Below, one piece after another: positions 58,111-60,549 of a stretch of 64,000 bases of DNA. Positions within the stretch are counted from its first letter, which is position 1, and the number at the start of each line of letters is the position of its first letter. This DNA comes from Cladochytrium replicatum (lineage: Eukaryota > Chytridiomycota > Chytridiomycetes > Cladochytriales > Cladochytriaceae), in contig JAHLKD010000047.1 in assembly GCA_025526935.1 (NCBI GenBank), positions 186,001 to 250,000 of the forward strand, read 5' to 3'. Under the pieces are notes generated by a model. It was not told the origin of the DNA and did no database searches. It was given only the letters and a program-made list of their open reading frames with translations. A program made the translations under genes and the position numbers.

Positions 58111-60549
58111 TCAAACTTCTGAAGCAGGATCAATCGTCCTCGCCCCACCCCACTCATTCGAAACTCCCAACCTCCCTGATGCTTGTGGACTATCAAAGAA
58201 ACCTGCGGTCGAACCTGATCTGCCTGAACCCTTCATGTCATCGCCAAACCCAACCGTCGTAGTCTTCCCGTTAGCTCGTGTTGAACTTTCGACCTGTGTC
58301 CCGCTTTCGGTGCTGAATGATACGGACGAGTTTCCGTTGTAAGGAACTCGTGGGGCCGCAGTGTCGTCCGTGAACCCTGCGAAGGGCGACATGTTCGCAG
58401 CGGCGGGGACAAAGTGGTCTGATTTCATGGTTCCATCAGAACAAACGAAAATGTGGGACAGTCACAATTGACACTCACAAGCCATCTCGCCCATCTGCGT
58501 GATGTCCAATCCCATTTTCTCGGTTTTGTCCTTCACACGCAATCGAAGACCAGGGATACGGTCCATTGTGAAGCAAATGATGTAAGTGATTGTGAACGCC
58601 CACGATGCACTGTCGCGTAAAGGAAGATTAATTTCAGACAAATTCAACATGCCTGGCTGGATTTGTTACCTCGCAAGAGTCGCCGCAAGCTGGTAACCAA
58701 CTTGCTTGAAGTTACCATCTAGCCAACCTCCAACTGAGCCTGGAACATCCACAATGACCCATCCCTGGGCAAACACACCAGTAAGGATGTTTCCAATCTA
58801 CACAAAATGTTCAGCATTGGTTTGCAAATTCATCCTCACGAAACTCACCACACCACCAACTCCGTGGACGGCAAACACGTCAAGAGAGTCGTCGATCAAG
58901 TAGCTGTGGTGCGTCTTGACGCGATAGCACACAAATCGACATACAGTCCCGGCCACAATTCCAATCACCATGGCCGCCCATGGAGCGACAAACCCTCCCG
59001 ACGGAGTAATCGCAACAAGACCGGCAATAGCACCAGTGCAGAATCCGACCGATGAGTACTTGCGGGTCGAGAACCAGTCCAAACCCATCCACACCAATCC
59101 GCCGACACTTCCCGCCAGGTTAGTCGCGATGATCGTCATCCCAGCACGCTTATCAGCAAGCAGCGCAGAACCGCCGTTGAAACCAAGCCATCCAAACCAC
59201 AGCAAAGAGGTGCCGAGAACGACGTACCCGGTATTGTGCGGCTTGTCCTCTTCCATCGAAAATTGGTCAGCAGCCGCTTCGACTTCGGGGACGGGTCCGA
59301 GTTCGTGGTCATTGGTGGTATCGGGCTTGTTTGCGGGAGTTTGGAGGTGCGAGATTACGTTGAGAATGGTCGATGAGCTGCCTGAAGAGTTCAGTGGTTT
59401 GGAGAGGCGTTGGCGGTTGCGTCGCGGGCCTAAGTACAGAGCGAGCGCAAGCCCAGAGAATCCAGAGGCAACCTAGAAGAGTGTGTGTCAGGTTTGACGG
59501 AAACAACAACATATCTTCACACATGCCTCCACAGGGCATCCACCAGCGAAATCAAGGTAGCCCATCTTCTTCGCCCATCCGTTTGGTGCCCTGAAAGGCC
59601 AGTTATTCACAATCCAACAAACAAATCAGCTCTGAATTGAAACATACCAAGTCCAGTAAGCAATGAAATCTGTTGGAAAAGTCAAAGTACGCGAGTAAGC
59701 AAAGTGCCAAGGGACAAACCATATTCTTTCCAAAATACCGTAAACCAAAGTCGTCCAAATAAACACGAACAGAAGGGAAGGCAGCACCCGGGTGCGGTCC
59801 GCTGCAGATCCGAACGGAAGAGCCGCAGTCAGTGCAGCAAACATAGTCTGTTTAAGTTAATCCAGAGATCAATTCTCCTTAATCACGGGATCGCATCATG
59901 GTCGCATACCTGGAAGAAGCTGAACACGTCGGTTGAGACAGCAGTGCCAGGGTATGGTGTGTTCTCGACATTGGTGAATGCTGCATATTCAAAATTGCCG
60001 ATCATCGGACCTCCCGTTGGAGAAAATGATAGAGAGAATCCCCTGTTACAACCTTTTCAACCAGCTAATTTAAAAACACGGAGGTTTTCTAATTACCAAA
60101 TGAAGCTTTGAAGACTGCAGATCCAGTACGCAATTAGGTTTGTATTAGTTTTGTATTAGATACTATAAGTTATATACCTGACTACTGCAAGAGAGAGAAT
60201 GCAGACGTGTAGAAGGACCAGCGCATTCTTAGCGTGTGAGAGACCGGAGTAGAAGTATCTATAACACGTTACTCCAAGATCAACAAAAGTAGTCTTATCA
60301 CCAACAAAGAAAACCTACCCTGTAAGTTACAAGGGAATATCAGAAAGAGGCAACACTTTGTATTAGCAAACGGGGAATGACGAAGTCACACTTTTTGGTA
60401 CCTAGTCCAGGAATCTATGGATTCATTCTGGTTAGAATCTCAATAGTTTGCTAGATATACTTGCTCACCATGATTAAGACCAGCGCGGAAGACGCCATCA
60501 CCCAGGCATTTGCAGCCGGATCCACTCCCGGAGTTGTAGTCGATGACAT
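58111..60549 (-). CDS. MEP: ammonium transporter (Mep/Amt), 12 exons with micro-exons
   Basis: Amt/Mep proteins move ammonium across the plasma membrane as trimers with 11 helices. Exons are 60549-60469, 60414-60402 (13 b), 60319 (1 b), 60258-60178, 60114-60097 (18 b), 60042-59910, 59847-59648, 59590-59521, 59472-58849, 58797-58670, 58609-58479 and 58418-58111 (595 aa). Conserved parts: MIPGLGYFYSGLSHAKNAL, FIWGFSLSFSP, WAPNGWAKKMGYLDFAGG, GTSLLWFGWLGFNGGSAL, IATNLAGSVGGLVW, ITPSGGFVAPWAAMVIGIVA, DDSLDVFAVHGVGGV (signature His), IGNILTGVFA and DITQMGEMAYHF. An unusual 70-residue loop with Arg and Ser follows the AGG block. The tail is Ser/Thr/Gly rich. Phases are consistent only if the single-base exon at 60319 is used. 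Confidence 0.9.
60319..60319 (-). other. candidate one-base exon of the ammonium transporter
   Basis: On the minus strand the order is CTAG, a gtacca..cttacag intron, the single base G, then gtaggt..gttatag and ATACTTC. Only the sum G+G+A gives the Gly codon of the conserved PGLGYFYSG block and keeps frame. No other GT/AG pair in the interval does so. Confidence 0.6.

Follow-up and report, generated by a model that had tools for sequence, protein, structure and literature searches.

A very probable single-nucleotide exon in an Amt/Mep ammonium transporter gene of the chytrid Cladochytrium replicatum

Our analysis of a 64,000-nucleotide stretch of the C. replicatum genome (hereafter the window) indicates that exon 3 of an Amt/Mep-type ammonium transporter gene is very probably a real and conserved single-nucleotide exon, judging from the sequence of two gene copies. 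This exon consists of one G, at position 60319 on the minus strand, flanked by ttacag on its 5' side and gtaggt on its 3' side. It is thus one base between the AG and the GT of two otherwise normal introns, two of the eight splice sites concerned in the two copies being weak. A conserved protein depends on the base for its reading frame, and the base is also conserved in a related gene, a diverged second copy located on contig C6. It splits a Gly codon as G|G|A within the motif PGLGYFYSG (motif context in the window, IMIPGLGYFYSG). Exons of this size probe the lower limit of what the spliceosome treats as an exon.

The transporter gene and its second copy

The gene extends from 60549 to 58111 on the minus strand and comprises 13 exons and 12 introns, encoding a protein of 570 amino acids. 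The coding sequence of 1713 nt, stop codon included, is open and in frame once G60319 is counted; without this base its length falls one nucleotide short of being divisible by three. The product belongs to the Amt/Mep ammonium transporters, as indicated by its score against the Pfam family Ammonium_transp (374.4 bits vs a cut-off of 23.2) and by its matches to solved Mep2 structures, which are the nearest structures by sequence (E-values down to 1.3e-104).

The first six exons measure 81, 13, 1, 81, 18 and 133 nt. Exon 1 (60469-60549), with the start codon at 60549, has the same length in the second copy (L013:4696-4616) and is followed by intron 1 (60415-60468), a GT-AG intron of 54 nt (53 nt in the second copy). 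Exon 2 (60402-60414) is a micro-exon of 13 nt in both copies, which encodes I P G L and the first base of the Gly codon. Intron 2 (60320-60401), from GTACCA to TTACAG, is 82 nt long in both copies; exon 3 (60319) supplies the G at the second position of the Gly codon GGA, and intron 3 (60259-60318), from GTAGGT to TTATAG, has 60 nt (61 nt in the second copy). Exon 4 (60178-60258; 81 nt) starts with YFYSGLSHAKNAL. Intron 4 (60115-60177; 63 nt, 55 nt in the second copy) separates it from a further micro-exon of 18 nt, exon 5 (60097-60114), which is kept in the second copy and precedes intron 5 (60043-60096; 54 nt, 53 nt in the second copy). Exons 6-13, with introns 6-12, form the remainder of the gene (58111-60042, minus strand). 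Within this part, intron 9 (59526-59473) is a GC-AG intron that begins with GCATGT, where the C6 copy reads GTATGT. The original prediction, in which the sum of 12 exons was divisible by three only with the lone G and three micro-exons stood in a row, was right about the frame and has to be amended in its exon count, which is 13; of the micro-exons, only those of 13 and 1 nt are adjacent, the order being 13, 1, 81 and 18 nt.

It had also been proposed that the simple splice is one base short, and that the G within cag|G|gtaggt restores both the frame and the Gly of PGLGYFYSG. Both proposals are borne out. In both copies, joining the 13-nt exon directly to 60258 brings translation to an end after residue 56; with the G, the coding sequence of 570 codons is open, and the second copy needs the same base. 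Mep2 carries IMIPGVGLLYSG, with a Gly at the matching place and no insertion, in the three printed alignments, which concern near-identical entries. We enumerated the GT-AG models of the 5' part of the gene, allowing at most three introns, each of 45-160 nt. There were 531 open models, 125 with the right ends and two that contained PGLGYFYSG. Both of the latter use G60319, and their sole difference is the donor of intron 1, the alternative donor dropping VLIM. The predicted spliced junction, including the lone G, reads ...CCTGGACTAGGATACTTC... in the window and ...CCGGGACTTGGATATTTC... on C6.

A search of the genome yielded one close relative, the second copy on contig C6 (L013, minus strand, 4696-2312). 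The two genes have equal protein and coding sequence lengths (1713 nt), the same exons of 13, 1, 81 and 18 nt, and share 11 of the 12 introns. Of 323 fourfold sites, 118 differ between them, as does the amino acid at 23 of 570 codons; their 188 coding differences are distributed as 20, 7 and 161 over the first, second and third codon positions. In exons 2-4, counting the G places all 10 differences between the copies at third positions, and the frame is thereby fixed to either side of G60319. The site in the second copy reads CTT G|gtatga...ctaaacag|G|gtgaat...taacag|A TAT; ACAG|G|GT is kept, between introns of 82 and 61 nt.

The apparent divergence of the surrounding introns varies with the alignment chosen. 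In a MAFFT alignment, 51 of the 119 interior columns of introns 2 and 3 are identical, and only two identical runs of at least five bases occur there, one at the exon itself (ACAGGGT) and one, AGTGTGAC, close to where intron 2 begins. A separate gapped alignment gave an identity of 0.63 for the interior of intron 2 (200 shuffles: mean 0.52, maximum 0.63) and of 0.50 for intron 3 (shuffle mean 0.51), and also paired a GCTAAT of intron 2 between the copies. The chance that the six bases CAGGGT are retained by neutral evolution is about 0.006 at an identity of 0.43, about 0.016 at 0.50 and about 0.06 at 0.63. Retention of CAGGGT alone is therefore supportive and not decisive; the need for the frame in both copies weighs more. 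The 8-base identity AGTGTGAC (60392-60385) is conserved as well as the exon site.

On a larger scale, C47:207018-298371, which includes positions 21018-64000 of the window, is collinear with C6:175001-291988 in 15 blocks of approximately 78-84% aligned DNA identity, position 175001 of C6 being the edge of the compared stretch. Amt genes are apparently paired between C47 and C6, C21 and C16, C67 and C22, and C9 and C101. Collinearity and pairing together suggest a whole-genome duplication, a hybrid origin or diverged haplotypes that were assembled separately. The Amt copy on C101 (L015, C101:79500-84500) lacks matches to profile positions 137-319, in the middle of the family, and looks degenerate from its sequence.

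A micro-exon screen of 105 segment pairs listed no other 1-nt exon, and most of its hits had weak splice sites; this screen is blind to G60319 itself, which was beyond its reach since no segment was obtained from exons 1 and 2. A conserved 10-nt micro-exon, TCTGGAATGG, is present at L027:3188-3197 (C47:263188-263197); it is bounded by cag and gtgagt in one copy, and by aag and gtaaga in its counterpart. Neither of the two peptides tested from this gene matched a Pfam family. Elsewhere in the window, a candidate intron of 113 nt (44740-44628; 109 nt in the copy) has a strongly conserved interior and precedes an RNA-binding-like segment (SRGFGFV); its splicing is possibly regulated.

Splice sites, intron lengths and competing readings

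Reference introns were obtained from an internal comparison of the collinear contigs C47 and C6. A column-by-column intron finder, applied to the DNA alignment, returned 24 introns, and one of the three that it listed in the Amt region was right; it was discarded. Protein-anchored joining connected 49 of 222 adjacent segment pairs and gave a looser set of 98 introns of 46-147 nt. The 173 unjoined pairs were dropped rather than scored as splicing failures, and those among them that were listed look mostly non-coding or in the wrong frame. A strict set of 84 introns was derived from 42 of the 49 joined pairs; it holds one false member, of 135 nt (126 nt in the copy), which corresponds to introns 4 and 5 of the Amt gene around the 18-nt exon. 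Strict introns have a median length of 58 nt, a 95th percentile of 112 nt and a maximum of 135 nt (seven of the 84 reach at least 100 nt and none at least 140 nt). Introns of 82 and 60 nt are ordinary by this measure, and an intron formed by merging introns 2 and 3 (143 nt in the window, 144 nt in the copy) would be unusual.

Splice scores were ranked against these reference introns, which also served to train the scores and include other introns of the Amt gene. The donor and acceptor of intron 2 fall in the 2nd and 43rd percentiles in the window, and those of intron 3 in the 27th and 19th; the corresponding percentiles in the second copy are the 56th, 45th, 10th and 49th. The two weak sites are the intron 2 donor of the window, with a score of 2.37, and the intron 3 donor of the second copy, with 3.07. 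Chance was evaluated with 4000 order-1 resamples of the interval in each copy (143 nt in the window). An AG|N|GT of any strength that leaves two introns of at least 45 nt arose in 27% of the resamples for the window and in 11% for the second copy. Both splice scores were at least as high as observed in 3 of 4000 and 1 of 4000 resamples, respectively, two figures that are not independent since the copies are related.

An identical protein could be obtained from a single non-canonical intron, either because exon 2 really has 14 nt (CTAGG) and is followed by a TA...AG intron, or because the intron ends one base early. Such a junction would be kept in both copies (CTAGG|TACC and CTTGG|TATG), and four of the 98 introns in the looser set measure 140-147 nt. 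However, each copy would have to use a non-canonical splice site, and at 142-143 nt the intron would be longer than any of the 84 in the strict set; nor would such an intron account for the conserved CAG|G|GT midway along the interval. We consider this reading distinctly unlikely. The principal canonical alternative is a later donor for exon 2, at 60391, which would produce PGLG-TKK-YFYSG and one canonical intron of 133 nt; we regard it as highly improbable. This model is in frame, its donor outscores that of intron 2 in the window (3.03 vs 2.37), and its GTGTGAC bases are identical in the second copy. Nevertheless, the three inserted residues are absent from the six other Amt genes and from the three printed Mep2 alignments, and the Pfam score falls by 8.7 bits (365.7 vs 374.4). 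Moreover, because this stretch is one base shorter in the second copy, the exon there would have 22 nt and not 23 nt, and would be out of frame unless the one-base G were also used.

The interval of the window offers another single-base candidate, T60355, which has a canonical AG|T|GT, is in frame and gives PGLVYFYSG with a nearly equal Pfam score (373.7). Both of its splice sites, however, rank in the 0th percentile among the reference introns, and it is without counterpart in the second copy, in which only the G lies within an AG|N|GT that keeps each of the two introns at 45 nt or longer; there is next to no chance that T60355 is the exon. The original prediction had itself named a one-base genome error as a way in which it might fail, and the loss of one base would indeed create an identical frame problem. 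The diverged C6 copy speaks against this, as the identical loss would be needed in two genes that differ at more than a third of their fourfold sites, which makes a shared assembly error very unlikely. Decay of the gene, for its part, is at odds with the preponderance of third-position changes among the coding differences (161 of 188), as in working genes. Error and decay together are hardly credible. We also rejected a stwintron, in which the inner intron would split an element of the outer one, since the donors (GTAGGT in the window, GTGAAT in the copy) and the acceptors are contiguous in both copies. A recursive splice site has an AG followed directly by a GT, forming a zero-length exon that leaves no base in the mRNA; it was ruled out here by the one base between AG and GT, which is needed for the frame.

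Predicted splicing and origin of the introns

If G60319 is an exon, as we favour, the two short introns of 82 and 60 nt, with their canonical GT and AG ends, would be removed in succession by intron definition. The AG of intron 2 and the GT of intron 3 are one base apart and could hardly be bound simultaneously, so that the factors at these two sites would compete and removal would probably be sequential. Once both introns are gone, the lone G would be left at the second position of the Gly codon (G|G|A) of PGLGYFYSG. We infer that the mRNA is spliced with the G, that this use is constitutive and that the order is sequential. In the window, the donor of intron 3 still reads AGG|GTAGGT after removal of intron 2, because exon 2 likewise ends in AG, and its score of 4.21 is unchanged; in the copy the score passes from 3.07 to 3.16. 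In both copies, the sequence GCTAAT, which we take to be a candidate branch site, precedes the 3' end of intron 2 by 42-43 nt. Between it and the CAG preceding the exon there is no AG in either copy, except one situated 7 nt beyond GCTAAT in the window.

One could go further and imagine the one-base exon as an old, selectively kept switch. Inclusion would then yield the transporter and skipping would yield a stop after residue 56, with a transcript presumably degraded, such that splicing fidelity would set the output of ammonium transporter. We regard this as unlikely. If it were true, the fungal cases would be convergent on one rule, an AG|G|GT placed within the codon for a Gly that belongs to a conserved motif.

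The segment through PGLG or PGLA is intronless in all six of the other, more distant Amt genes compared (L009, L010, L011, L012, L014 and L015), and introns 1-3 thus appear to be peculiar to the pair formed by the window and C6 copies. Intron 7 (59738-59670) is found in the window copy only, the matches of L009-L012 and L014 running through its site, and was probably gained later. In a genome search that skips very common words, introns 2, 3 and 7 match only themselves, indicating that they are not dispersed repeats; an introner origin was rejected for all three, as this search gave no second match anywhere in the genome.

Comparison with known single-base exons

Single-base exons are indeed very rare, as had been stated with APC11 as the established precedent; more precedents exist in nuclear genes, among them plant VPS55 and Fusarium CYP621A, and the Amt one-base exon is a further case of this known kind. 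Our literature search on single-base exons found none in an ammonium transporter. The single-nucleotide exon of Arabidopsis APC11 is reported to be constitutive, on the basis of cDNA and reporter constructs (PMC4674806). As in the Amt gene, the one-base exon is required for the frame; unlike the Amt exon, it is a plant exon, its base is an A and, according to the same report, its flanking introns lie within a 422-nt interval (PMC4674806). The 1-nt micro-exon of VPS55 in land plants, for which RNA-seq and RT-PCR evidence is described, is another single base that has long been kept and was overlooked by annotation; it differs from the Amt exon in being of plants and in its alternative use in some lineages (PMC8831610). 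The same account mentions that RNA-seq reads of soybean APC11 are lost unless the 1-nt exon is annotated (PMC8831610). More generally, annotations are described as tending to overlook single-base exons (PMC8831610; PMC12940212). A single-base exon has also been described in placozoan mitochondria (PMC5436844). The stwintrons (spliceosomal twin introns) of fungi, as they are presented in the source cited here, resemble the Amt arrangement in their two adjoining short introns and consecutive splicing (PMC5639578). In a stwintron, however, a splice element of the outer intron is interrupted by the inner intron, whereas the Amt introns are whole and have an exon base between them.

Closest to the Amt exon is the one-nucleotide exon of Fusarium CYP621A. 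It is backed by 18 RNA reads from two species as well as 20 orthologs, and its authors describe it as the first fungal case (PMC12940212). According to their description, it shares with the Amt exon a fungal host and one base in AGGGT, at the centre of a split codon for a Gly within a conserved motif. The interval occupied by the introns is also about twice the usual length or more in both (139 nt there, 143 nt in the Amt gene; PMC12940212). The two exons differ in gene family, and the Amt exon is known from two copies in the sequence of one genome. The Amt exon would add a fungal gene family with the Fusarium-like layout, and this shared AG|G|GT within a Gly codon suggests that such exons can arise, or be tolerated, by a repeatable route. 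The two diverged copies present in one genome form, in addition, a natural pair for finding the flanking bases that matter.
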